A model generated the notes under the pieces. It did not search any database. It was not told the DNA's origin and was given only the letters and a program-made list of their open reading frames with translations. Positions 12,564 to 30,511 of a stretch of 64,000 nt of DNA are shown here, piece by piece. The position numbers were made by a program, and so were the translations under genes. This stretch comes from Linnemannia elongata. Taxonomy: Eukaryota; Mortierellomycota; Mortierellomycetes; Mortierellales; Mortierellaceae. Each line of letters opens with the position of its first letter. Position 1 is the stretch's first letter. The stretch lies in contig JAXBDG010000008.1 of the NCBI GenBank assembly GCA_036320915.1, positions 1-64,000 on the forward strand, read 5' to 3'.

Positions 12564-14261
12564 TTACTCCTGGACCAGCTTACACTTCATGTCGTTCGTG
12601 CCTTTGGAGCGGACTATGCGTTCTGCAAGGAAGGTCATCTTTGGCACATGGTGGATTCTTACTTGGCCATTCGTTCCCCTATATTTTCTCCGCCACGTTT
12701 CCCACAGGTTACAGAGGGACTTACCGGCTCTAACTCTGGTCCCACAGTCCATAATTATATGCCAGTACAAAGTCCCGCGAAACTTCTTTAAGCCTGCTGC
12801 TGCAATGGTATATATGCGACCTGGCTCAAGCACATTGTAGCCGGTTCCAAAGGCGGATGAATGTATACTCTGCATATGCTTAACATACTGCCCATCATCG
12901 GATCTGCGCTCCACAAGGACAGCTAACGGTGCACTCTCCTTGTGGTGTCGCCTCTTTGGCCATCCAATGCGGATGTTGTCCACAGATACAATACCCATGT
13001 CGGCAAACTTATATACTTCGCGGTCGAACAGTGCGTATGAGGGGAACATACCCTTGGAACCACCTGGTACCAATGTTTTGGCCTTGCAGCCTGGCTCTCT
13101 CTCATACATCTTCTCCTTGGTGACCTCCACTGTACCATTCTCGCTAACTTTGGCCTCCACATAGTAGATGGGACGGTCGTTGAACGAGTAGTTGGCAACC
13201 AGGTGCATGGCAAGCGGTGCTGAAACTTTGGACCACATATAACCGTACTTCTTGCGGGTTGTAGAGCTCCACCAGTGGCAGTATGCAAAGACCTTGCTTC
13301 CAGGGATATACACCGCGACCATGGCCTTTATAAGCTCAGCACGTTCTATCCAGTGCTGTTCATAGCTGTAGTCAAACGTGGTGCAGCCGTCCAAAAGCCT
13401 ACGCGCATCATCCATCCTATCTTGGTATACCGCCAAAGGGTGCAGCCTTGAGCCATAAAAGGTTAGCTCCAGCCGTGAAAGGCCATGATCCCTATGGCGC
13501 AATAGAGTCCTGGCGAACTTCTCATCTGGATTGGCAACTATATCCTCCATCCTTGAACCGAGACTCTTTCGCACATCCGCGCTTTCGAGCATCTGGACCA
13601 GCTTGTTATAGACCTTGCACCTGATATTTTGGGCATTGTCTGCAGATGCAAACCAGGTCACACAGTGGTCACCCACCCGTCCGCGATCGTTGACTATCGT
13701 TGAAATGCCCTTAGCCTTCAAGTGCCTCTCCAAATAGGTCCGAGTTGATACATACCTGCAGTCATGGGTCATGTCGATGTCATGCAGGACAAGGTACCGC
13801 TTCCGAAGGATAGGCAGGATGACAGCCATGGCCATTACCACCTTTTTGGCACGGCAGTGGTATAGAGACACCTTGATAGAGACAAATCCGGCAGAGTATG
13901 GTCCATTGCTGTGCTCTTGTGCATGTGCGGTTTGGATGTCAGCAGGGATATACTCTTCGTCCAACAGAGTGCCACTATGCAGCGACTTGATGGAATCGTA
14001 AGGTAGATCCGCCTTGCCAAATGCCTCACGTAAGTCAGCCATATATTTGCCAATGGACTTGCCCTTGACCTTTTCATCGGCATAGTTGACCGGAGCCCAA
14101 AAGACCATACTGTCACAGAACATCTTGGAGAACCGTGTGAACCCCTTGCGTTTGGTACCTCCAAGACGACCAAGGGGATGTACACATTTGCCAACGTCGG
14201 CAAGGTTGTGCGTGTACTTATTGAGGATCTCGTTGATGATAGCTTCCTTTGACCGTGACAT
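12564..14261 (-). CDS. B2 Rep-like protein
   Basis: 565 residues, five substitutions relative to the B1 protein (7675-9372); all recognisable boxes are unchanged. An uninterrupted frame next to a broken transposase shows that the duplication is recent. Separated from ORF1 (minus) by the TTTTTAAAAA motif at 14281-14290. Confidence 0.7.
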   Translation of the reverse strand: MSRSKEAIINEILNKYTHNLADVGKCVHPLGRLGGTKRKGFTRFSKMFCDSMVFWAPVNYADEKVKGKSIGKYMADLREAFGKADLPYDSIKSLHSGTLLDEEYIPADIQTAHAQEHSNGPYSAGFVSIKVSLYHCRAKKVVMAMAVILPILRKRYLVLHDIDMTHDCRYVSTRTYLERHLKAKGISTIVNDRGRVGDHCVTWFASADNAQNIRCKVYNKLVQMLESADVRKSLGSRMEDIVANPDEKFARTLLRHRDHGLSRLELTFYGSRLHPLAVYQDRMDDARRLLDGCTTFDYSYEQHWIERAELIKAMVAVYIPGSKVFAYCHWWSSTTRKKYGYMWSKVSAPLAMHLVANYSFNDRPIYYVEAKVSENGTVEVTKEKMYEREPGCKAKTLVPGGSKGMFPSYALFDREVYKFADMGIVSVDNIRIGWPKRRHHKESAPLAVLVERRSDDGQYVKHMQSIHSSAFGTGYNVLEPGRIYTIAAAGLKKFRGTLYWHIIMDCGTRVRAGKSLCNLWETWRRKYRGTNGQVRIHHVPKMTFLAERIVRSKGTNDMKCKLVQE

Positions 14262-14295
14262 GTTGTTAATAGATTCTTGCTTTTTAAAAACTCCC

Positions 14296-14577
14296 TTAGG
14301 TGGCCTTCAACTCAGTGCGCATAAGGTACTCACCAGCAGCTTCGTTGGTCAACAGTCCTTTCTCAGAGAGTTCACGTCGGATACCCTTGTATACCTTTTC
14401 CAACATCGAGTAGATAGTATGTGGACACCAGGTTTCACCAAAGTCAGGAGATTTAGCGCGGTGAATATCCACGAATGCATCAAGGTACACATACATACAG
14501 GTCTCTAAGCGATGGTCCGTAATAAATTTAGCGACGACATCCTGTTGCAAAGATTTATGTGTAAGCGGAATAGGCAT
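14296..14577 (-). CDS. B2 ORF1, small accessory protein
   Basis: 93 residues, differing from B1 ORF1 by about two residues (E to K near the AEF motif, H to R). Same position relative to the TIR and the Rep-like gene as in B1. Function unknown. Confidence 0.6.
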   Translation of the reverse strand: MPIPLTHKSLQQDVVAKFITDHRLETCMYVYLDAFVDIHRAKSPDFGETWCPHTIYSMLEKVYKGIRRELSEKGLLTNEAAGEYLMRTELKAT

Positions 14578-14908: not shown

Positions 14909-15532
14909 GTATCCTGACCTTGTGGACAGAGGGGATTTCTATGCTTTGTATGAGATGTTAGAGCAGGTTTACAAAGGTATCCGCCTAGAGCTCTTAAGTC
15001 ATGGACTTCTTACAAATAAGGCAGCTGGTGAGTATGTGATGAAACGATCCCAGTGAGCCATGGTTGGCCTGAGTGGTTTTTAAAAATTTTCCCAAACACA
15101 CAAGCCAACATGACAAGATCAAACGAGTCCATTATCAACGAGGTTTTTAAGAAGTTCACCGGTAATTTGGCTGACTTTGGTAGGCCGTCCTGTTCCCGCA
15201 GAGAGAGTAGACAAGGCTTTGCAAAGTTTTCCAAGATGTTTTGCGACAGCTTGGTTATGTGGGGACTCTACAATACCTTGTCTGAGGACACCAAGGGAGT
15301 AACCATTGGGAAGTACATGGCAGAGTTGCGTGAGCTTTGTAGTAGGCACTCCTTGCCCTGTGACTCCATTAAGGTGGTTACTACGGGTACGAATATCGGC
15401 GAGGAGTATTTCTCAGAGGACATGAAGGAAGCGTACGCTGCAGAGTTTGCTGGACAGTCCCTCCACATGGGGTACATTGCCATTAAGATGTCCCTGAAAC
15501 AGTGCCGAGCAAAGAGGGCTGTGTTGGCATTG
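14909..15532 (+). mobile_element. Family A fragment A3, cut by LTR element
   Basis: Begins inside ORF1 of family A exactly where B2 ends and stops inside the Rep-like gene exactly where the LTR begins. It holds the last 49 codons or so of ORF1 (stop at 15054-15056), the TTTTTAAAAA motif, and the first 141 codons of the Rep-like gene from ATG 15110. It preserves the M1 empty site. Both edges are junctions with other elements. Confidence 0.85.
15110..15532 (+). pseudogene. Family A Rep-like gene, 3'-truncated
   Basis: Starts MTRSNESIINE and follows the A1 protein closely until the LTR at 15533, after which a few LTR-encoded residues and a stop follow. The HDIDMT and later boxes are lost, so this fragment cannot be functional as a Rep-like protein. 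Confidence 0.85.
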
Positions 15533-15631
15533 TGCAACAGTTGGAACCCCGATTAGAGTAACTTAGATAAATAGACAACCAATACCAAAATACATAATCA
15601 TCTCTTCCTTCCACTCCTTACAAAAGTTGCA
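15533..15631 (+). repeat. 5' LTR, 99 bp
   Basis: Starts TGCAACAG and ends GTTGCA, giving 6-bp terminal inverted repeats. It matches 20638-20736 except for about one substitution near its middle. Very short for a Ty3 LTR. The gag ATG is formed across its last base and the primer-binding site. Confidence 0.92.
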
Positions 15632-16776
15632 TGGTAGCAAAGGTTCACCAATCCACTGACCAGACCCCAGACCCCCTAGAACAAACCCCAGACCCCTCCA
15701 GCTCCCCAGAAACCTCTCCCAGTACCCCCTCCATCCCCTCTCCCTGTCTACCACCAATCGACTCGTCTTTCATCACTGAACTCTTATCGGAACTCACCAT
15801 TATGACCAACGACAACCTCGCCACCATCATAGAACTCGACACCACCTCCAAACCCGCCAAGTACGACGGCACTCGCGACGGTTTCAAATGCCTTGCGTGG
15901 CTAAAGGAAGTGCAACGCTACTTCACTATGAAGAACGTGCCAGACGGCAAACGCACCATCCATGCCGTTAACCTTCTCAACCAGACCTCCCTTCTGTGGT
16001 GGGAGTCACTCAACATTGATGACAGCTGCGACTACTCCACCTTTAAAACGTTGTTCAAGAAGGTATACATGCCGGACGGATTTCTTGAACACGTTCGCGG
16101 CCTCCTCCTCAACGCCAAACTTACTACCAACCTCGCCGAATACCTCACCCGCATCCGCCTATACATGAACATTTTACTCGCAGAAGACCCCACAGGCCGC
16201 GTCTTTCTGGAAACCACCGTCAGAGTTGTTTTCCTCCAGGGCTGCCCCGACGACCTAAGGCAACTACTCCAGACTGATCAGGTATCCAACCCCAACAACA
16301 CCTTTTTTGACATGTGCTCCAAGGCTGAAGGATTCGATACCATCTACGCTTTCGGCCCCAGAGGAGCCACCAAAGGCATGTTCGCCAAGGCTATGAATAG
16401 CATGCGCTCACAGACTTCAACTCCAACCCCAACCCCCGCTTTCGACCCAATGGCAATGGAAATCAACAACATCAGCATCGACCCCACCACCCGCGCTCTC
16501 ATGTCCTCGGTCCAGTCTCTCACTATTGCTGTCAACGCCATGGCAACCCGGTTCAACAACCAACAACAGCAACAAAACCGCCCACGCCTCGCCCGCCTCA
16601 CCGACGGAGAAAGAAAATACTTGGAGGACAACAACGGCTGTTTCAAGTGCCGCCGCCCCAACGCGGGACATTACTCCTGGAACTGTAACCAGCCCCCCAG
16701 ACCCCAGACTGTTAACAACATTGCTATCGCGGGCAACCCCCCAACAAACCAGTCGGGAAATGCCTCCAGCAACTAG
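15631..16776 (+). CDS. Retrotransposon Gag
   Basis: 381 residues: a P/T/S-rich N-terminus, a Ty3-type capsid region starting around [14 protein letters not shown] (about residue 73), and a zinc knuckle near residue 338 with spacing C-x2-C-x6-H-x4-C, two longer than the usual x4. It binds and packages the element RNA into cytoplasmic particles. The ATG straddles the LTR/PBS boundary; a downstream methionine at about residue 58 is an alternative start. The frame is intact. Pol lies in the -1 frame and overlaps the end of gag. Confidence 0.85.
15632..15643 (+). promoter_or_regulatory. Primer-binding site for initiator tRNA-Met
   Basis: TGGTAGCAAAGG immediately follows the LTR. TGGTAGC is the complement expected for the 3' end of a fungal initiator methionine tRNA, the usual minus-strand primer of Ty elements. 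The tRNA itself is not in the window, so the match is by family knowledge. Confidence 0.65.
16737..16743 (+). other. Candidate -1 frameshift site between gag and pol
   Basis: C CCC CCA in the gag frame fits the X XXY YYZ pattern. The pol frame is open from here onward, while an earlier C-run (16693-16698) cannot serve because a stop at 16713 follows in the pol frame. The distance to the gag stop is about 30 nt. I did not identify a downstream pseudoknot. Confidence 0.4.
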
Positions 16777-19700
16777 GTACAGTCCAGGACCCAGTTGCTG
16801 AAACCCCCTCTCTTTGCCCCAGCGGTGAAGGGAGTGCTCACACTCCAGAGTTAAGTAAAAAAGAAAAAGGCAAAATAAAGTTGTCAGATCGCTCAGTTGA
16901 TAAGATTAGCAACCAAACTCAGATTACAAACTCAAACTGTGATGCTCACTCCCCCCCCACCCTGGCACCTTCACTGGACCAGATCCCAACCTTTGACTCG
17001 TCCCACCTTGTGTCTAGAACTTCAGATGAACCAGACCTGGACCTGGATGCCCCTGTTGTATCGACCACACCGCCTACAAAGCGACAGTTGAGAAGACGGA
17101 GACAAAAGCAATTGCGTCTCTGTTCATTTTCTATCGCTGAGGCTGAGCGTCAACTGCTCACTTTCAATTGCCTTGTCAGTGGCTTCCCGGCTCGCGTGTT
17201 GATTGATGGCGGTGCTGAAGGTAATGTAATCAGCACATCATTTCAAAAGAAAAACAACTTGCCTCGAACCGTCATCAACCCCATCCCTGTTCTTCTTCCC
17301 GACGGCTCATCCTCCATCACCAAGCACACCGTCAACATCACCATCGAACGCAACGGCTACACCGACTCTCTCGACCCCATCCTCTACCCACTCAAGAAAT
17401 ACGACCTGATCTTGGGAAAACCATGGCTCACACATATCAACCCTCAAATCAACTGGCGCACAAACGCTCTCCATTTCACACACAACAATACAGCCATTGA
17501 ATGGGACTGCACTGGATTCAAATCAAAAAGTATTCAGACCCGCACCAAAGGCCTCCTCCTTACCCACATACATTTTCACACCATGGCCACCCTCCCCGGC
17601 TCGGATATATTTTTGGCCCTGGTCAAGTCCTCGAAGGATCTGCAGAAGGATAAGGACAACAGCGGCAAGGACTCACCTCCACCACCCAAACGCCCCTGTA
17701 TGACACCCGAGATCAGGACAATTGTCGAAGATGAGTTCAAGGACGTTTTCCCCGACACACTCCCCAGCGGCCTCCCACCAGACAGAGGCGACGCCATGAA
17801 GATTGAGACGGACCCCACAGCAGACCCACCCTACAAGCCAGTCATTCGCCTCTCCATCGCAGAACTCGACGAACTTAGGAAACAGCTGGATGAGTTACTC
17901 GCCAAAAAATTCATCAAGCCCAGTACATCACCTTACGGCGCCCCAGTACTCTTTGTTCGGAAGAAGGACGGCACCTTGCGAATGTGCGTAGACTATCGAG
18001 CTTTGAACGGGATCACCAAGAAGAATCGACACCCACTTCCCAGGATCGATGAGCTGATCGACCGTTTCCGTGGCGCACGCTATTTCAGCAAGCTGGATCT
18101 ACTCTCGGGATACCACCAACAGAGGATCTACGAACCACACACGCACAAAACGGCATTCTGATGCAGATATGGACATTTTGAGTTTAACGTCGTTCCATTC
18201 GGCCTTACCAATGCACCGGCCTCCTTTTCCAACATGATGCTTAGGGTGCTCGACCCGGTTCTAGATAAATGGGTTGTTGTCTATCTAGACGATATTCTCA
18301 TATACTCCAAGACCAAGGCCGAGCATCTGAAGCACCTCCGCAGCGTCCTCGCCCTCCTTTGACAACACGGTCTTTACGCCAAACTCAGCAAGTGCTCGTT
18401 CATGCAAGAAGAAACTGAGTTTCTTGGACACACCATCTCCAAGGACGGGATCTCTACTTCGGCGGGACTTGTCAAAGCTATCCGGGAATGGCCTCGCCCC
18501 ACCAGCATCAAAGACGTACAACAGTTTCTTGGCCTTACACAGTTCTACCAGAGTTACATCGACAAATTCGCCCTCATCGCCCTACCTCTCTCCCAGCTTC
18601 TAGCCGGCGGCGCGACCTTTTCATGGGATAACGACAAGGAGCAGGCATTCCTCACCCTCAAAACCGCCATCAGCTCTGCCCCGGTCCTACGCATATTCGA
18701 CCCCGACTTGCTAACAACCGTCGAGACCGATGCATCGGGATTTGCACTCGGCGCTGTCCTCTTTCAGACAGATGCTTCAGGAGTATCTCGACCTGTTGCT
18801 TTCACGTCACGGAAACTTCAACCAGCAGAGAGAAACTATCCAACCCATGAGCAGGAACTACTGGCAGTTGTGCATGCCCTCAGGACGTGGCGATACTACC
18901 TGGATGGATCCCACTTTATCGTGTATACAGATCATGCAACCCTCCGCCATTTTCCAACACAACCAAAACTCACCCGCCGCCAGGCTCGATGGATGGAGCT
19001 GCTTCAGGAATATGACTTCGACTTCAAGTACAAACGCGGAGCCGACAACATAGTACCCGACGCCCTGTCCCGTCGACCCGACCACCGTTTGGAAGACCCT
19101 ATCAGCCCAACAACAGACCCAGTCGAGATCCATTCAATCGATATTCAACTTGAACCAGGTGTGAGGCAGCGCCTGATAGAAGACTACCAGAGTAGCCGCA
19201 GACTCAGTCTCGTCTACAAAAGCTGCCTCGAGGGAAGTGCTCCCTCCGGCTACTCTTTCCATAATGGCCTTCTATACTACGACCGCCGTGGCACCGTTGT
19301 CCTTGCCATACCACAGAAAGCTGACATTTGCCGCTCTCTTTTACATGACTGCCATGATACCCCCATAGCTGGTCACTTTGGGTTCAGAAAGACATACGAC
19401 AAACTGCGTCGGATAGCATACTGGCCCAACATGGCCAAGGAGACCCAACTCTACGTCGACTCATGCGAGAAGTGTCAACGCAACAAGCCAAGTCAGGAGC
19501 GACCTGCAGGACTCCTTCAACCTCTCCCCATCCCCGCTAGTCGCTGGGAGGTCGTAACCATGGACTTTATGACCCACCTACCCAAGACACCTCGCAACCA
19601 CGATGCCATCACCGTCTTTGTCGACAAGTTATCCAAGCATGTCCACTTTGTTCCCAGCACCACCACCGCCACCGCTACCGACGTTGCTCGCCAATTTTTA

Positions 19701-20627
19701 GACAATGTGTTCCGCCACCATGGAATGCCAACAACAATCATCTCTAATCGCGACAGTAAATTCACAAGTCACTTTTGGCAGGAGCTCCACAGGCTCATGG
19801 ACGTCAAGCTTGCAATGTCAACAGCATACCACCCACAGACGGACGGACAGACGGAGGTCATGAACAAGACACTGGGAATCATGCTACGCGCCTTCATCGA
19901 TGAGAAGCAGACTAACTGGGATATTCTCCTCCCGGCCGCAGAATTCGCCTACAACAACTCCGTCCACCACTCAACCGGTCACTCGCCTTTCTTCCTCAAC
20001 ACTGGCCAACACCCTCGCATTCCTGCCACCCTCCTCTCCCACACCGACAGCAACGTTCCCAGTGTCCACGACTACCTGGACCAGCAGTCCACAGCACTAA
20101 TCTTTGCCCAGGATGCACTGCAGCGAGCCCAGGATCATCAAAAGGAACAAGCCGACAAGAGACGACGCGACCATGACTACAAGGTCGGCGACAAGATCCT
20201 TCTTAGAGCAGAGAACATCACTATGCCAGCCGACAGTGGACTTAGCTCGGATAAACTTAAGCCTCGCTTTATTGGACCATTCACCTTGCTGGAGCAACGA
20301 TCACCAGTCACCTTTCTAGTCGACCTACCCCCTTCCTACAACATTCACAACATCTTTCACGTCGACCTCTTCCGTCACTACACTGAGTCACCACTTACAT
20401 TTGGCCGCCGAACACCAGCACCAGCACCGCCTGTAGTCATCGAAGGCAGTGAACAGTACGAGGTGGAGTCCATTTTGCGCTACAGGAAGTACCGACGACA
20501 GTATCAGTTTCTTGTTTCCTGGAAAGGATACGGACGTGAGGACCAGACCTGGGAACCCGTTGCCAATCTAGAGAACTGCCGCGACCTGGTAGATGCGTTC
20601 AAAAAGGACCAGGGGATCGTTTTTTAA
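16743..20627 (+). pseudogene. Retrotransposon Pol (PR-RT-RH-IN-chromodomain), two stops
   Basis: One frame of about 1295 codons with TGA at 18159-18161 and 18360-18362, both where related Pol proteins have arginine. The order is protease ([12 protein letters not shown], a DGG in place of D-S/T-G), reverse transcriptase (VVYLDD box near 18282), RNase H (VETDASGFALG), integrase with HHCC zinc residues, then a C-terminal chromodomain (about 20457-20560) of the chromovirus type. The integrase box normally S-D-R-D reads S-N-R-D (codon 19746-19748), which removes a catalytic aspartate. This copy should be inactive. All three damaging changes fit C-to-T (or G-to-A) transitions. Confidence 0.9.
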
Positions 20628-20637
20628 AAGGGGAAGG
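20626..20637 (+). promoter_or_regulatory. Polypurine tract
   Basis: AAAAGGGGAAGG directly abuts the 3' LTR, as expected for the plus-strand primer. It overlaps the pol stop codon. Confidence 0.8.
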
Positions 20638-20736
20638 TGCAACAGTTGGAACCCCGATTAGAGTAACTTAGATAAATAGACAACCAATACCAAAATACAT
20701 AATGATCTCTTCCTTCCACTCCTTACAAAAGTTGCA
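20638..20736 (+). repeat. 3' LTR, 99 bp
   Basis: Near-identical partner of 15533-15631. It is followed directly by coding-like sequence of a Fanzor pseudogene without any target duplication. Confidence 0.92.
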
Positions 20737-23729
20737 CCTAGCCGAGAAGCCTTATGTCGTGTTCAAGCGTTATAATACTGTCGATCGCCCACCAGAGCAG
20801 CGTCCACGCCCCCACAAGTCCGGAAGGAACTTCAAGTACCGTCAACGCTATGCGATCAAAACTCGCATCCATCTCCAAGAACATGAAGCACCCGAGTCTA
20901 TGAAGCAATACAAGTTGAAGCCATGGAAGCCGCCACCCGAATCTCCTTTGGACCCTTAAAGCAACAAAAATGAGCCCCGCCCCTTACCGAAAGTCCGCGA
21001 TGTCACGAACATGGTCAAGAAGGATCTGGTTGACGCAATGGCATGGGATCATCCCACCCGGACCCTCGAGCTAGGAACCATCAACCCGAACGTCACTCGC
21101 GCCCTAAATAAGGACCATTCCCAGCCTGAGCCTTCCGTCCTTTTACCAAGAATCAATTCATGCCTCAGTCGTGTTGTCCGTCTGTCCTCGAAAGTTAAGA
21201 GGACCTGCCAGATTGCGATAGGGTTGTACATCGAACAACTGGCTTTACATCACATTCAAGAAGACGAACGGAGAAAGGAGGACAACAAGGAGAACGGTGA
21301 GACGGAGGACGATGGGAAGGAAGACGATGGGAAGAAGGAGAAGGAGGGGCAGGAGGTAGCCGATGAGAAGGATGGCGAGAAAAAGAAAAAGGTTCTTGAT
21401 CCAAAAGATCGGAACCTTCTCGATTTACTTTGACCTGGGTTTTCCTAGAAGGATCTGGCCAACTTCAGCAAGGGCGAGACAGAACGGGAACCAACTACAC
21501 AAGAAGGTCTGGAGGATGTTGATGACAGTGGCGACAAGAGGAATATACAGCTCCAGTTCCTTTCCTGTTTGCTCACTGCTATCTACACCGCCAAACGCCC
21601 CAGCGTCAAGGAGAAGGAAGTTGCCGGAAAAGCGACTATCGTCCCCGGGATGCCCGCCAACGTTTGCAGCTTTATTGACTGAGCCCATGACTTTTTGCCG
21701 GAGATGACAAAGTAGGGAATCGAGGTGGAGTATCCAGGATCCAGTTTCCTGAGATCTGCTGCTGTGTAACTTTGTGTCGAACTCAGAAGCATTACAAGAA
21801 TGGAACGATCGATCTTTGTAAAAAGGTAACAAAAAACGACAAACCCTTAGGCTTTGTTTATTCTACCACTGATTGCAAGAGAATGAAAACTAATGTTATC
21901 ACTTTATCTATTTTTATAAAGATTGAAGTCCTCAAAGCCAAAGGCCATTTGCCCTCCGGAGTGAGAGGCTTCATTGACCCCAAGAAATCAGCAATAGAGA
22001 ACTTCATTCTCTTGAACCGAGCTTGCGGAAGTCGGCGTTCATTGGTGCCAGTATCGTCTTTTGATGACAAGTTCGTGACCCTGTCTGAGCTCGATCTGTC
22101 GAGGATCTTTTGGCGAGACCCGTTCTTGACGTGCCGGATTCAGTCACTTGCCGTGGAGTATTTTGACGCCATACAGTATGCCGACCAAGTTTCCCAGGCA
22201 GATGTTGCTGATTGGCTAACCGGAGCCACACCTGGTGAGTTTATTACCAAGCTGCTCACCGACATTGGTGGATATTCACAGGAGGAACGGAGGAGGTTGA
22301 GGAACTATTCAAGGACCACGTTTCTGATGCCGATTGAGGAGATGAGGGCCCATCTTTACCACATCCGAGCCGATTCCTTCCAACCCGCTACTTATGCTGG
22401 GAGAGGATATGTCTTGCGCGGGTCGATTCGTACGGACGGTTTCCGTCTTCAGGCGATTGCGTTCAAGTTGAATGAGCTTCACTGTGTCAAGTACAGACGG
22501 CTACACCCTGACAGGCTATTAACTGGAGCTACTCGACTGCAGTCAGCTCTCGGCGGCACAGACTACTTCCTGACGGAGATCAGGAACGTGCTCGAGACCA
22601 AACAGGATGTCGAGGGCCTTTGGGGTTGTGATCCTCGTCTCATCAAGGTCCTTGGTATTGATTTGGGCCAAGCCTTCGTTGTTGGAGCCAGCGCAATCTT
22701 GCCTCCTTCTGAACAGCCTAGCGTTGAAATCGGACAAGAGTCGGACGATGCCATCATGGAGCCATCATCACCAACCATCGAGGAAGTAGGGGGGAGCGGA
22801 GTGTCCGAGACTGAGAGGCCACCAGCCAAATATTTCAACCTGGCCTGCAAACAAAAGGCTGTTTATCAACCAACTTTCAAACACAGGCGTTGGTTGGAAC
22901 AAAGGAAGGGGCAGTCAACAGAAGGAGGAGAGTCCATCAGTCATATTGAGACCAGCCTTCCTACTCGACGTGGACCTGAGGCGAGCATCAAGGACTATGC
23001 AGCGAGAGTGGAGGAGGTGAAGGATGATCTCGATTCATTCTATGGCAGCGTAGTCCTGAAGAAGCACAGCTGGAATGCCAGGAAAGCTCGAGCGGAAGAG
23101 TACAGGCTGATCGCCAACCGCCTTTTACAACTTGTGGGAGGGTCATTGGGGGCCAGGAGAGAGGTCAAGAACAAAGTCATTATTGGTGTCGGTCTCGGGC
23201 AGTTTTCTAGCAAGACCACGCTGTCGTCGTTGTATGAGTCTTTCCAATCGAACTTTGTGCAGAAAGCGACCAAATCTGCGCCTTGTATTCACTAATTTTC
23301 TAACCATGCCAAACAATGCAATCGTGGCTAATTTATATTTGTTGCTTTTATCATTCTTTCTGAGCGCGTTCCCTCGGTTACATCGTTGTTGGTGTCAATG
23401 AATACTACACGTCAAAGAAATGCCTAACGTGCACAGAGTTTGTTGGTCAAGTTGACATCCGTCGCCTCTATTGTACAAAGTGTCAGAAATACATGCACCG
23501 CGACATCATGGCTGGCCACAACATTGCTAATGCCATTCAAGGACACCTCCTCAACCAACAACGACCTGAATACCTCCAGCCCGTGGACTCCGATGGAGAC
23601 TATCCCTGGAAGAAAGACAGACGCGGCTTTGCGCCTCGTTTTGGAGGGTCTGGTGGAATTAGGGGAGTCAAACGAAAAGCGGATGAGAGGACAGAGTCAA
23701 GTCAGTTACAAAAAGTAGCCATAGCATAG
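20737..23729 (+). pseudogene. Fanzor nuclease, 5'-truncated and broken copy
   Basis: Homologous to exons 3-5 of the gene at 24921-29372; everything upstream, including any XPG-like part, is lost at the LTR. Coding blocks lie at about 20737-21433, 21455-21687, 21905-23270 and 23375-23729. The first blocks contain stops TAA (20957), TGA (21431), TAG (21713) and TAA (21767) plus at least one frameshift near 21770; some gaps may be introns. Retained features are the RuvC-I aspartate in VLGIDLG (22660), a CX2C...CX2C zinc ribbon, and the RuvC-III aspartate in HRDIMAGHN (23502). The long 3' half (about 21905-23270) is still open. At 21767 the intact paralogue has CAA for the stop, a C-to-T change. 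Confidence 0.8.
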
Positions 23730-23764
23730 TTTTTTTCCTATTTTAGTATTTTGGTCCATATTTG

Positions 23765-23845
23765 TGTATTAGCCAATACATGGGCCAAGTTTGGGGTCTA
23801 GGAGGGCGCGCGATTTACTCACTTCGGTGACGTAATTTATGCGCC
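23765..23845 (+). ncRNA. Candidate Fanzor omega-RNA 3' scaffold (locus 1)
   Basis: Starts 36 nt after the stop codon. A perfect 6-bp hairpin (TGTATT/AATACA, 23765-23780) is followed by a 41-nt nested stem (23805-23845): GGCGC/GCGCC outer stem, TTAC/GTAA, a single bulged C, TCAC/GTGA and a UUCG loop. The same 41-nt layout lies after the second Fanzor gene (29488-29528), with neighbouring sequence unrelated. In TnpB/Fanzor systems the guide RNA scaffold overlaps or follows the 3' end of the gene; that role is inferred here. Confidence 0.55.
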
Positions 23846-23993
23846 TGGGTACAGGACAATGGACGCCATAATTCTCTTATTGGCTGAAGCTAACCATGAA
23901 ATCTTTCCTAATATGGATTAATTTTTACAGTCAATTGACACCATAATACAATGAAAATAGGCACAATGAGATCATTTGACACAATACATTTAT

Positions 23994-24269
23994 TCACTGG
24001 CATTTTCGCAAAGCACTGCTCTCATTCGGGCCTTTGACTTGAAGATAGGCGCTGTGTAGCAAAGCTACTGTTTCTTGGAGGTACTGTAACGAGCACTTTC
24101 GTTTCTTTTTGGCCTCGAGCGCATGGTACATATTCTCAAGAAGAGTCATTAACTCTGTCTCGCCGTCCCCAAATGCTTGGGCATTCTCGCGCTCCTTCAC
24201 CAATAAATCAGCCTGTCTCTTTTCAGCCCTCTGAAAAATAGTTCTTGACAACTCATTTGATGGACTCAA
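23994..24269 (-). CDS. Hypothetical small charged protein
   Basis: 91 residues, rich in E, K, R and Q, predicted largely helical (EKRQADLLVKEREN region), with no domain I know. Support is weak but positive: a decayed copy with alignable residues (REVANTLAFE, then KREVYLQYM) can be read on the same strand at about 24440-24650. It lies between the two Fanzor loci and is transcribed away from the intact one. Confidence 0.3.
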   Translation of the reverse strand: MSPSNELSRTIFQRAEKRQADLLVKERENAQAFGDGETELMTLLENMYHALEAKKKRKCSLQYLQETVALLHSAYLQVKGPNESSALRKCQ

Positions 24270-24439
24270 GTTTTCGGTTGATTTGACATATTTTATATCG
24301 CTCTATTCACTAATATATACGGCCGGCAGCCACTGCGTTGAGACCTTTGACTCCAAGCTGTTAAGTGGGAGTGCGGGGAGTAACGAAAAGAATGAGTTGA
24401 CTTTATTCATATCACACGAAGGATGAAAGCTATAAAAAT

Positions 24440-24650
24440 AGCACCTGATCCGTGCTCAAGTCCTGTCACCACGGTTTACATGTATTGGAGGTACACTTCT
24501 CTTTTTTCGGGCTCTTATCTCATGGAATACTTCGACAGTGATCAGCGCTTGTTCTCGCTAGCCTCGAACGCCAAGGTGTTTGCGACCTCCCGTTCTGACT
24601 TCTCTCGTTCTCATTCTTCTGCCCGATGCTTTTTGAAGGTGAAGACGGAT
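24440..24650 (-). pseudogene. Decayed copy of the 23994-24269 gene
   Basis: Minus-strand translation gives fragments alignable with the neighbouring 91-aa protein, in the same order but with several stops. Too degraded for exact ends. If correct, this was a tandem duplication. Confidence 0.3.
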
Positions 24651-24920
24651 ATGCGGTGAAATACTATTCTCCACAGTCAATTAGATTGATATCACAACTG
24701 GTTAACTCTTGCACGAGAGTAAAGTCTCCACAAAAGCAAACTTCCATGCACAGTTACATAAGCTTCCGTTATCTGGCCTATAACGCTTTTCTCGCCGTCG
24801 CGGCCCCTTAAACGCATGATCCTCACTCAATCACCCTTGTCCCAACAGCTTCACCCATCGTTCCCCTCTTCTCAATTCCTCACATCACCCCCACTCTCAT
24901 CTCATCCGCCACTAGCCAAT

Positions 24921-27900
24921 ATGGGACTGAAGGGGTTCTATCCTTGGCTCCGCAAGAAGAAAGGCTACCATCCCACGCTTCGTCACCCCATGCACCACCA
25001 CCTGCCTGACGACGCCATTATTCGCGTGGATGTTTTGTCTTTCTTTACCAAAATTCGCGGAATCTACACCAAGCATGCAGACGACAAAACAAAGGCGCAA
25101 GCTATCCTATTCGAGCATCTCAAGAAATACGGCGACCCCTCCCACATGGTGTTCTATGTCGACGGCGCCCCTGCTCTCGAGAAGAAGGAGACTCACCGTG
25201 AGCGAAACGAGAAGCGAGCTAAGGCCCTCAAGAATGCCAAGGTTGCCATTGAGACGCTCGGGAACCGCATCAATCAAGGCAAACCGCCCACCAAGCAGAT
25301 GTTCAAGAATGTAGAGAGGAGTCTCCGTGGAGGATTCAAGTGGTCTCTTCAAGATCGGGAAGACTTCGTCCATTTTCTGCAGGCTCAAGAGCTCGATGCG
25401 CACCTTTGCAGGACCGAGGCCGACATTGATATCGCTGCAGAGTGCCAACCCAAAGACGTTGTTCTGACTCAAGACTCGGACTTTTTCGCTTACGATTCAG
25501 TTACAACGATCTGGCGTCCTGTGGGCAAGTGGGACGACGTCAAGGTCTTAGAATATAGTAGAGAGGCGGTGCTGGCCCAGATACGACTGTCAACCACCAA
25601 GCTTACTGCACTGGCATGCGTCTCGAGTAACGACCAGAACAAGAACATTCCATCGATGGGGATTGCCACCAACTACAGCATTATAAAGGATCTACCCGAT
25701 ACAGGTAAGAACAAATAATTTGCCAGCATGCCCATACCGCCTCTATTCTTTGTGGATATGGCCAGACTCATCATGACTCCTTTGGACCCTTTCTCTATCA
25801 GACGTGCCATCCCTGGTGAAGGAGTATCTCGAGAGCCCACGCGTGGTCTGCCGCGGTCAGGAAGGAATCGATTTCACGGCCTCTATTCTCGTGTTTACCA
25901 CAATGACCCAGGAGATTGCTGCTCCAGCGGGCGTATCCTCTGTTCCGTCGCCGTCGTCACAGTCAGTGACGCCTTTGACGGCCTCTGCTGCATCCATCTT
26001 ATCGTACGAACTGCTCTGTCATCAGTACAAGGTGATCAAGGACCAGCATGCCAGAGCCAAGGAACAGAAGCGCCAAGGGAACTCGAGCAGCAAGAGGTAA
26101 CACATTAAGTGATATGTGATTCTCTCACATGACCCTTGATATGGCTTTCCCATCACTTGCGATCAGTCTAACATGCTGTTTGCCTATTACCGCACTCTTC
26201 GACATGCTCTAGCAACTCTAAACCCAATCGGCAGGGCAAGCATAGGGAATTTAGAAGGCATCGCGTGATCGATCGGCCTGCTCACCAGCCTCGAGTCTCG
26301 CAACAGGTGCACCGGCCGCGGCATTCGTACAAGTCACGCGCAGAACCACAGCAACACGAACAGCCATCGATCTGTAAGCAATATGAACGAAAGCCCTACA
26401 CGGCGGAGCAAGAGGCACGGTACCGGGAGTCGACAGCTGAGGCCAGGGGAAAGAAGGCGAAGAAGAAGCGACATCGTGAGACTCAGCGACTCAAAAAGGA
26501 AAAGGAGGTAGCCAAGAAGCCGCCGCCCAAGATCGACGAGATGAACAAGGCTCAGCTGATCAACGCTATGATGTACGAGCATCCCCTTGTTTCCCTTCAA
26601 GTCGGCACAGTCAATGCCAACAGTAAGCGGGCAGCGGCAGCAACAACCACCAACGCCAATCAACTCCCATCGTCTGAACAACAAAAGCAACAACAGCAAC
26701 AAGAGGTTTCTGCCTGCATTTTGGACATTGTTGGGCAAGTTCGCGCGACGAAGAGACATGCACAAGAGTTTTTGGGCACGTTCATCGAGACCGTCTTTGA
26801 GAGCGGTCTGACCGAGAATGACCGTATCATTCTGTACTCTTTGTGTCCCGTCGTCGAGTCCAAAATCCGTATGGTGCCTCAACCCAAGCAGGATTCTCAG
26901 GCACGCAGCAGCAGTTCCGCTGGCACTCCCACGAAGGTTGAAGGCAACAAAGACACGGAGGATGAAGGCGACGAGGATGCGGAGGATGAAGGCGACGAGG
27001 ATGCGGAGAATGAAGGCGACGAGGATGCCGAGCCGTCTGCAATGGACAAACCCTTCTTTGCCTTTTACCAGATCCTTCTGGCGCATATCTACTCCCGCAA
27101 GATCAAGTTCAAGACGGTTGCCGAGCGGCAAGTTGGCCAGCTGCTTACACGTGCCACCTCATTGGGCATCACTTTGCCCTCTGTTCCTCCACGCGACATC
27201 TCCTACCAAACCAACGGGTTGCTCGAGTCGACCACCAAGCAACTTTATTGCTCCATCAAGAAGATGTATCGCAACGGCTCGGTCGCTCTTGAAAAGAAGG
27301 TAATGTGAAAGTTGTCAGTCAAAGCTTTGTCACAGACGAAATACAAAGAGAATAGCATTCATCAAAACATATTCCAAAACTAACGCTTTTCTTTCCCTCT
27401 ACATTAGATCAACTCACAAGCGGATGTCCAACCTGGCACGGTACTTCCCAATATCGACCCCAAGCTACCTGCCATTGAGAACTACCTACTTTTGAACAAG
27501 GCCACCGGCGGATCGAGGCGTATTGCGCCTCTCTCACCCCTGGCGCCTCGCTACGTTAGCTTCTCTGAGCGGCAGTTGCTTCCACTGTTCTGGTCTTGGC
27601 CAACCCTCAAGGACAAGATCCGACGGATGATGAACGAGGATCGCTACTTTCAGGATCCGGCCATAGTTCCCTCGCAGGCTGACGCTTTGGACTGGCTAGC
27701 CAGGACGACGCCTGGTCGCCTTATAACCTCTTTCCTGTCGGATGTCGGTCTCCCGCCAGACAAGCACGACAAGGGCTATCGCAAAACAACAACTGTCATG
27801 GACATGGACGGCAAGGGCGGCAAGGAAGGGCTTCGGGAACACCTCAAATGTCTGCGGGCTGAGACGTTTAACCCCAGGGATTGGCACAACAAGGTTTATG

Positions 27901-29372
27901 TCCTGAAGGGCTCGATCCGGACAAATGGACGTCTGCTGCAGCTGCTGGCCTACAAGCTGAAGGAACTCCAGTCTGTTCGGTACCGTCGTATTCCCGAGAA
28001 CAAGGCCCCAAACCCACTTCTTACGACCATTGGTGGTATAAACCGTTATCTGACCGAAGCTCGAAATGTCTTCTTCTCAGCTGCTGATGTGGAGAATCTG
28101 TTGGCTACTGATCCCAGTCAGGTCACGGTGTTGTCACTTGATTTGGGTACCTCCTGCATCGTTGGTGCCACCGCTTCGTTCCCACCTGGCCAAAGCCCTA
28201 CCACGTTGGCGCGTCCCCTGTGTCAGGATGGCGGCCAAAAGAAGAGGAAGAAGAAGGGAAGGCGTGCCAAGCTGAAGCCTGGTGATAGAAAGCGGCAGAG
28301 GAAGAGGCAGAAGGCGCGCAAGCTGGGCGGGCGGTCTCTGGCGATTCGGTGCTTTGATCTGGTGGTCAAGCGAAAGGCCGTGTCGCGGCCCACAGACAGC
28401 TTTTCCAACTGGCTCGAGGACCGGCGGGAGAACACCATTGGACCATCTACCGGCAGAACTATTCAGAAGATTGAAACCGCCCTACCGCCTCTCAAGGGAG
28501 AGGGTGCCTCGTTTTGCGAGTATGTAGCAATGCGTCGAGCGTCGGAGGAAGACCTGGACACCTTTTACAACAACACCAACTTCTGGAAGCACAAATGGGA
28601 TTCCAACATTTGCCGAAAGGAAGAGTACTACAAGGTTGCTGAGGGTTTGCTAAACATGATTGGTGGATCTGTCGGTAGGCCGAGATTGCCACACCAAAAC
28701 GTCGTGATCGCGATTGGGCTAGCCAAGTTCACTGCTGTTCATGGCCCACCAGCCCTCGATGGCACGTTCCAGGCGTTTTTCATCAGTCTGGTAGGGCATA
28801 CTGTTGCAACGACTGTTCAGCAAGGTCATTTCTTTACAGGGACATGCTAATGTTGCTTTTATTTTTTTTTTGTCTTGACTTAGGCTCGTTCGTTGGGCTA
28901 CCTTGTGGTTGGAATCAACGAATATTATTCCTCCAAACGATGCCCTCGCTGCCATGCATTTGTCTGTGCGACGTCGGACTGGCGGACCCTTTATTGCACA
29001 ACTTGCAAACGGTTCCTTCAGCGAGATGTTATGGCCTCCGAAAACATGAACAATGCAATCAAGGGTCACCTGATCCACCAGCAGCGGCCGCACTACCTTC
29101 AGCCTCGGCGTCAAGACGGATCTTACCCGTGGATGGATGTTGCTGCTGGTGACGGTAGTGGGGGTGGAGGAGGAGAAGCAGCTGGACCATCGGCTGTGGC
29201 CATGGACAGCAATGGAGACGAAGCAGGTGGTGGTGGTGGCGGAGGGGCAGTAACAGCCAGAAAGAGGCGCGCCGCTTCGATCGTCTCAGTCGAGGTCCCC
29301 GACACCGGCATCTATCCCATGACTGACGCCCTCAGTTCTTCGTCCAGCCACATGGGGAAAAAAGCGAAATGA
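24921..29372 (+). CDS. XPG/FEN1-like nuclease fused to Fanzor (TnpB-like) nuclease
   Basis: Five exons, 24921-25704, 25802-26096, 26213-27299, 27408-28790 and 28884-29372. Every intron is GT-AG and every phase closes, giving 1345 residues. Residues 1 to about 300 form a FEN1/XPG-type flap-nuclease domain with all seven acidic positions visible: D37, D81, E166, D168, D185, D187 and D238. From about 370 a basic N-region, an acidic repeat (EDEGDED) and the Fanzor core follow: RuvC-I D967 (LSLDLG), zinc ribbon C1203/C1206/C1221/C1224, and RuvC-III D1231 (QRDVMASEN). The middle RuvC glutamate cannot be assigned by eye. Fanzors are RNA-guided DNA nucleases; the flap-nuclease partner is unusual. Start chosen at MGLKGFYPWL, the canonical XPG N-terminus. 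Two separate genes remain possible if intron 2 is not spliced. Confidence 0.8.
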
Positions 29373-29423
29373 CCACAGCAGTTTCACAATGTAGGATGCT
29401 CCATAGCGTCTGTAGTTAGATAT

Positions 29424-29528
29424 ACATGCCTGTATGCATGTTCCATAGTGTAGGGTCACGTGAGCTCGGCTACTTCATCGTGGCCGAGGCGCAGCGATTA
29501 CTCACCTCGGTGACGTAATTTAAGCGCC
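29424..29528 (+). ncRNA. Candidate Fanzor omega-RNA 3' scaffold (locus 2)
   Basis: Begins 52 nt after the stop of the fusion gene. Hairpin ACATGC/GCATGT (29424-29441), then the conserved 41-nt nested stem (29488-29528): GGCGC/GCGCC, TTAC/GTAA, bulged C, TCAC/GTGA, loop CUCG in place of UUCG. Stem arms are unchanged from locus 1 while loop, spacers and flanks vary, the pattern expected of a selected RNA structure. Sequence after GCGCC differs completely between the loci and could be the guide/target side. Confidence 0.55.
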
Positions 29529-29662
29529 AATTGTTCTGTGACCATGCGCCTATTTCATCACGACATATATCCCACCCTCTTTTCCACCCACCACAGTCAT
29601 CGTTGTCCTTCCTATTCCCTTTGTTATCATTCTCCTCTGCTTTGCTGCCCTTTACTCCCATC

Positions 29663-29783
29663 CAGGGCTCTGACCGCCTTCTATGTTTTATGGCTAGACC
29701 TTGTCAATTACATGTGGATTGTATAACAAAATTCTCATAATTGACAAGGTCTAACCATATATATAAAGGCGGTCAGAGCCCTG
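29663..29783. mobile_element. hAT-type MITE, 121 bp
   Basis: Terminal inverted repeats of about 47 bp begin CAGGGCTCTGACC, a typical hAT start. A perfect 8-bp duplication, CTCCCATC, flanks it (29655-29662 and 29784-29791), the length made by hAT transposases. It has no coding capacity. It lies in a CT-rich, promoter-like region. Confidence 0.88.
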
Positions 29784-30008
29784 CTCCCATCACCTCTCTT
29801 TCTCGCTCCATCCTTCCCTCTTCTCTTACACACATACACACCTCCACTCTCTCTCGCTCTCTCGCCTTGTGTCCATCTTTCTTTCTCTGTCACTAGTCAC
29901 AGCACTACATTCTAGCTACTCCATCTTCATTGTTCTCTCCGAAAGTCACGTCAGCGGGCTATACAATAGGTAATGATGTCATTTCATTCTGTCCCTCTCC
30001 CTCTCTCT

Positions 30009-30366
30009 GCCTGCCCTCCTCTGCCTCCTGGCTTCCTTTGGTTCACAACCAAACGAAGGGCCTCAGGTCTGTGGAGATTGGGTTAGTTTTCGCGATCATT
30101 GCCGGCCATGTGGCATGCTCTTTACCAAAGCCTCCTACTTGGCAGCCAATGATCCTGACGTTTGCTCATTTGCACATCGCAGTCGCGACTGGCGAAGAGG
30201 GAGATATCTTTGTTCTCGTCTTGCCTGCCTTCCTCTGCCTCCTGGCTTCCTTTGGTTCACAACCAAACGAAGGGCCTCAGGTCTGTGGAGATTGGGTTAG
30301 TTTTCGCGATCATTGCCGGCCATGTGGCATGCTCTTCACCAGGGCCTCCTGCCTGGCAGCCAGTGA
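30009..30366 (+). repeat. 144-bp direct repeat (two copies)
   Basis: 30009-30152 and 30223-30366 are about 95% identical, separated by 70 bp. Each holds a short inverted motif (GGTTCACAACCAAACG area) and can be read as a cysteine-containing peptide in one frame, but no start or conserved domain supports a gene. It could be the 5' UTR or first exon of the gene at 30512. Confidence 0.7.
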
Positions 30367-30511
30367 TTGCGACTGGCCATGAGAGAACGCACACATGCCT
30401 CATTGGCGGTTTTTTGCTGTGTGTCGTTTTATATGTATGATCGCATTGGGTATGCATTTCCAATTTGTCTAAGTCATCTTCTTGACTGTATTTCTTAGTG
30501 TCTGAGCCGAA

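Follow-up and report, generated by a model that had tools for sequence, protein, structure and literature searches.

A predicted fusion of a Fanzor1 nuclease with an XPG/FEN1-type nuclease in a multicopy DNA transposon of Linnemannia elongata

Results

A spliced gene for two joined nucleases

The window analysed here, a 64,000-nt stretch of Linnemannia elongata DNA (GenBank assembly GCA_036320915.1, contig JAXBDG010000008.1, positions 1 to 64,000, forward strand), contains a transposon copy whose gene, judged from its sequence, almost certainly encodes an XPG/FEN1-type nuclease fused to a Fanzor1 nuclease. A sequence-only reading made before this analysis had proposed five exons closing in phase over four GT-AG introns, and joining the sequence confirmed this, giving a single frame of 1345 amino acids (aa) with one stop:

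24921..25704, + strand: exon 1, XPG/FEN1-family nuclease domain (residues 1-261), with an MGxxG start and seven acidic residues
25802..26096, + strand: exon 2, last part of the nuclease region and first part of the linker
26213..27299, + strand: exon 3, linker, then onset of the Fanzor part at about residue 472 (placed by the match in P0001)
27408..28790, + strand: exon 4, Fanzor core, containing the RuvC-I aspartate D967
28884..29372, + strand: exon 5, four-cysteine zinc ribbon, RuvC-III aspartate D1231 and basic tail (Pfam PF07282, E 2.1e-9)
25705-25801, 26097-26212, 27300-27407 and 28791-28883, + strand: introns 1-4, all GT-AG

The GenBank model of the same locus, P0001 ('hypothetical protein F5H01DRAFT_405658 [Linnemannia elongata]', 1334 aa), is 97% identical across the full query, starts 35 aa further upstream and uses a different intron-4 acceptor, which excises the zinc ribbon. 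Several relatives have the MGxxG start at the position chosen in the five-exon model, and both cysteine pairs of the ribbon are retained in P0002, P0004, P0014 and P0025; our model therefore fits the relatives better, and P0001 is probably wrong on both the start and the intron-4 splice. At the same time, the boundary of intron 4 is the least certain of the model, since the alternative donors 28803 and 28815 likewise preserve the frame. Intron 1 is conserved in all seven copies displayed, which represent two subfamilies; two family-B copies have open frames interrupted in a similar pattern; and gene models from other species predict the same fusion. All of this argues for a fusion beyond chance.

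The seven FEN1-type acidic residues claimed in the sequence-only reading (D37, D81, E166, D168, D185, D187 and D238, matched to FEN1 by sequence alignment) are all present and do not vary across six divergent members when these are aligned. The fold of the N-terminal domain is that of the XPG/FEN1 family, with FEN1 and EXO1 tied as fold matches, and by sequence the nuclease matches RAD2/XPG (E 1.2e-12) more closely than it does archaeal FEN1 (E 2e-7) or human FEN1 (E about 1e-5).

The catalytic features read earlier in the C-terminal part were also found, as RuvC-I D967, zinc-ribbon cysteines C1203/1206/1221/1224 and RuvC-III D1231. Together they satisfy the Fanzor1 motif D-X(125,275)-[TS][TS]XX-C4-X(5,50)-RD given in the available excerpts of PMC3627910: D967 is followed by 231 residues, SSKR, the four cysteines, five residues and R1230 D1231. 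A candidate RuvC-II glutamate in the alternative place is E1196. A sequence and profile search of the PDB with the Fanzor part found no Fanzor chain; the solved structures nearest to the predicted structure of the relative P0020 are those of Fanzor1 (Foldseek ranks 1-6; VIA ranks 1-5).

Recurrence of the fusion and selection

In the same genome, 51 matches to the Fanzor exon resolve into 37 loci, 30 of which have a match to the FEN1 exon 1.57-1.90 kb upstream on the same strand. Four of the seven others were inspected and are truncated or fragmentary, and the remaining three are short weak matches. The FEN1-less Fanzor loci on C10 and C11 are fragments; the one at C8:1214308 (family E) retains the conserved linker, with no FEN1 within a further 3.7 kb upstream. 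Conversely, of 39 matches to the FEN1 exon, 8 lack a downstream Fanzor.

Absence of the fusion from all related genomes, which the sequence-only reading had named as grounds for refuting it, is excluded, as both domains occur in 25 of the 33 proteins from our first two database searches, a set in which some entries are labelled partial and some have only part of a domain. These two-domain proteins come from seven genera (Linnemannia, Mortierella, Dissophora, Entomortierella, Haplosporangium, Benniella and Actinomortierella). In P0025 (Benniella), precomputed XPG_I and TNB domains lie within one protein, and P0014 is a fused gene model with about 31% identity over 95% of the query. In a third search, with the nuclease domain alone, the named matches bear genus names of Mortierellaceae (membership presumed for most genera, the lineage having been checked for three taxa); this search reaches only relatives with shared short words, so the spread may be wider. 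In one Fanzor relative, P0029 (Linnemannia hyalina, 1239 aa), about 550 N-terminal residues have no match to the FEN1 profile or to any family in Pfam.

Comparing subfamilies A and A2, three times for each exon, gave a ratio of non-synonymous to synonymous change (dN/dS) of 0.12 in exon 1 (FEN1) and 0.18-0.21 in exon 4 (Fanzor), which points to purifying selection on the fusion between subfamilies; at greater depth, silent sites are saturated in most comparisons.

The gene as cargo of a DNA transposon

Identity among near-identical copies in the same genome stops at about 23847 and 29543, which delimits the element:

23847..29543, + strand: whole transposon copy, 5,697 bp
23847..23868, + strand: left terminal inverted repeat, imperfect, 22 bp (15 of 22 bases by hand count)
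29522..29543, - strand: right terminal inverted repeat, imperfect, 22 bp, read from the sequence
23839..23846, no strand: left 8-bp target duplication ATGCGCCT, identical to 29544-29551
29544..29551, no strand: right 8-bp target duplication ATGCGCCT, which would also supply the first bases of the predicted guide
23828..23836, + strand: target-site motif TGACGTAAT, outside the element and within the right end of a related copy (copy 1, below)

Perfect 8-bp duplications flank 11 of the 15 copies with both ends readable (one of the 11 requires a one-base shift), and those of the other four match at 7, 5, 4 and 3 of 8 places. With these ends and duplications, the gene is cargo of a multicopy DNA transposon, a setting that the sequence-only reading had not noted. 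No transposase was seen in the window element, and none with the same ends emerged from pattern and DNA searches together with six loci that have stray ends (L061-L066, a part of all stray ends); what these yielded was a copy with its interior deleted, solo ends, the remnant of a Fanzor, and genes that were nested or unrelated. The internally deleted copy, L061 (G000 C9:199700-207800), is ghost-like, retaining both ends and an omega-RNA-like right end; its nested genes look to us like pogo-type and hAT-type transposases.

The insertions examined favour a particular sequence context. The left end was recovered in 19 of 28 sequences examined, and in 13 of these 19 flanks bases -18 to -11 match GACGTCAC at at least 6 of 8 places, with the flank of the window element scoring within that set; the other six score 4, 2, 2, 2, 0 and 0, and in two of the 19 TGACGT is shifted one base outward. 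Such a match occurs at 0.4% of window positions (binomial p about 1e-27 for 13 of 19, a value that is indicative only, as the consensus was derived from the same flanks). In those 13 the motif keeps a fixed distance, 10 bp from the left end, and a fixed orientation, and no comparable clustering was seen in the 21 right flanks inspected. The right ends inspected, from families A, A2, B1, B2, C, D and copy 1, carry TGACGT followed by A or C at a fixed distance inside, the exception being a family C fragment group (C2 and C4:907 copies) that has GGTGACCTCA in its place. The motif resembles a CRE/ATF site. We rejected its assignment as a classical target-adjacent motif, since 2 bp separate it from the duplication and it does not directly adjoin the predicted guide, and call it a target-site motif only.

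The right end as a predicted omega RNA

Two predicted hairpins lie at the right end:

29424..29441, + strand: short predicted omega-RNA hairpin; all 7 groups inspected show exact complementarity of the stem
29454..29543, + strand: long hairpin of the predicted omega RNA, stopping at the right end of the element (fold energy z -4.2)

Nine right ends were folded, and eight gave a short hairpin followed by a long one ending within 3 bases of the end of the stretch. For family B2 the short hairpin of lowest energy relies on a different pairing, and the right end of copy 1, split by insertion, folds differently. Fold energies were 1.9 to 5.8 standard deviations below those of shuffles preserving single-base content. 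Exact complementarity of the short stem is kept despite four different sequences among the seven groups (selection by eye). Trained on four sequences of family B, a covariance model recovers two unseen families, D (E 7e-4) and E (C8:1214308; E 0.003), and Rfam has no match within the window. We infer that transcription of the right end yields an omega RNA, with the sequence adjoining the element as its guide.

Neighbourhood of the element

The window element interrupts the right end of copy 1, and so the predicted guide of the element is copy-1 right-end sequence:

20737..23846, + strand: copy 1, a related Fanzor copy, truncated and diverged (exon 4 37% identical, same right-end sequence)

Directly upstream of copy 1, 15532-20736 resembles a long terminal repeat (LTR) retrotransposon with 100-bp direct repeats 99% identical. 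One of the loci with no FEN1 match upstream, copy 1 (C31:21952) is truncated there, the LTR element having removed whatever came before that Fanzor. Downstream of the window element, 29663-29783 is a hairpin-forming stretch like a miniature inverted-repeat transposable element, with 22-bp inverted arms at 29689-29710 and 29738-29759, and an identical 122-bp copy of 29662-29783 lies in the C27:1191879 element segment. A pair of 146-bp direct repeats (95% identity, 214 bp start to start) occupies 30008-30367. Further upstream, a 580-aa open frame at 12564-14306 (- strand) and a similar shorter frame at 15032-15556 (+ strand) have FSKMFCDS in common.

Discussion

Proposed mechanism and its rivals

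The proposal that we favour, as roughly an even call when taken whole, is that a Fanzor1 has long been carried by a Mortierellaceae DNA transposon as one polypeptide with an XPG/FEN1/EXO1-type nuclease, acting through an omega RNA, a guided cut and end processing. The right end would be transcribed into omega RNA with the flanking sequence serving as guide, and the ribonucleoprotein would cut the empty site, whether donor or sister. The fused nuclease would then trim or resect 5' ends or flaps at the Fanzor cut, and repair would proceed by homology, restoring a copy of the element. RNA-guided cutting by the fused protein is the likely part of this scheme; that the N-terminal domain's role is processing at the Fanzor cut we hold somewhat less firmly than an even chance. 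The role of cutting and homologous copy-back would follow the analogy of TnpB, for which cutting of the empty site and recovery of the element through homologous repair are described in the available excerpts of PMC10432273.

Several observations weigh against this proposal. The single exon-1 sequence falls under the curated cut-off of Pfam XPG_I (17.5 bits against 24.9; E 0.0057), a family matched by 10 of 17 relatives at E 0.01 or better. The Fanzor structure was predicted for a relative (P0020) with no FEN1 in its annotated part, at a mean pLDDT (predicted local distance difference test score) of 60, and Cas12f and CasPhi chains trail Fanzor1 in that comparison by at most 1.5 Z units. Among 29 sources, the covariance model finds three A/A2 copies only at E 1.4-4.2 and misses family C and the remaining A copies, and its match to the window (family A) is partial, at E 1-2 once filters are switched off. 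Finally, dN/dS is higher between close copies (0.43 and 1.26 in one pair, 0.18 and 0.44 in another, with few changes each), as expected if such copies may be decaying.

Other roles for the XPG domain have to be considered. It could serve transposition by clearing 5' flaps or overhangs from the 8-nt gaps that arise on integration, the step that creates the target duplication, with the Fanzor half acting separately; the perfect 8-bp duplications in 11 of 15 copies and the XPG/FEN1 fold are consistent with this, but host flap nucleases should suffice, neither the window element nor the six stray-end loci offer an encoded transposase to which such a role could be tied, and the fusion to a Fanzor is left unexplained, so we regard it as doubtful. 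The fused protein and right-end RNA might instead help to choose or make the insertion site, the Fanzor half opening the target and the XPG half processing the ends: no transposase turned up in the element or the loci inspected, yet the insertions examined favour a fixed place by a GACGTCAC-like motif that is also present inside the right ends of these families. We think this unlikely, but if true it would amount to a eukaryotic system of RNA-guided transposition, with insertion directed by a motif or by RNA. We judge it quite improbable that the XPG-fold domain processes RNA instead of DNA, acting for instance on the omega RNA at its 5' end.

It is also conceivable that the fusion targets rival elements, an insertion in another element's right end yielding a guide against that family and the added nuclease helping to destroy the cut copy. 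The window copy does sit within the right end of copy 1, and some further copies are head to head or near each other; at the same time, the remaining flanks listed appear mutually unrelated and the shared target motif alone may account for nesting, and we consider this very improbable. Least likely of all, and in our view hardly credible, is that the gene model misjoins two adjacent genes: although the linker is poorly conserved and GenBank models disagree in details, several species have fused gene models (that of P0014 among them), intron 1 is conserved, and conservation extends across the joint in the part of the linker around HRxIDRPAxQP. Two genes joined by chance were rejected as an explanation, given the recurrence of FEN1 and Fanzor together across loci, the conserved intron 1 and the two-domain proteins of relatives, as was an assembly accident, the same layout being present at 30 loci across many contigs.

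Significance

An open-access literature search (subscription papers and outside preprints lying beyond its scope) found no description of a Fanzor joined to FEN1 or XPG, in agreement with the earlier remark that no Fanzor with such a partner was known. One review, on gene integration, contains both the words Fanzor and FEN1; XPG and FEN are absent from the text of PMC3627910, and XPG and flap from the texts of PMC10711439 and PMC10432273. The fused protein is itself already in GenBank as hypothetical, and its relative P0014 is named a putative transposase. The biological role of Fanzor cutting is stated as unknown in excerpts of PMC10432273; a fusion with a repair-type nuclease that occurs naturally and is conserved gives a direct clue, namely that the Fanzor cut needs processing in a set way. 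It also offers a testable system, a single polypeptide with two separable active sites at about 30 loci in one sequenced soil fungus, and could lead to an editor that both cuts and processes ends unaided.

Comparison with known systems

The C-terminal part resembles Fanzor1 proteins (SpuFz1, GtFz1 and Parasitella PpFz) in satisfying their motif, in its nearest solved structures and in its location within a transposon, and the right end is predicted to fold into a short stem, linker and long stem, as in excerpts of PMC10432273 and PMC3627910. The difference lies in the N-terminal XPG/FEN1 nuclease and long linker, neither of which is mentioned for Fanzors in the available excerpts of PMC3627910, PMC10711439 and PMC10432273. 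The omega RNA of SpuFz1 likewise has two stems and a linker (PMC10432273, excerpts), the predicted one here placing its short stem, linker and long stem beside the guide. Elements ROr-4, PBl-3 and MCi-4 of Mucoromycota (Bao and Jurka 2013; PMC3627910, excerpts) share terminal inverted repeats, a Fanzor and the lack of a transposase within the element, and occur in other fungi; theirs have 9-bp duplications and MuDR-like ends, whereas here there are 8-bp duplications and a target motif. With the XPG/RAD2-FEN1-EXO1 nucleases the N-terminal domain shares the fold, the MGxxG start, the seven acidic residues and the helix-turn-helix region around D238, but those host repair enzymes are stand-alone, while this domain is a fusion partner encoded by the element.
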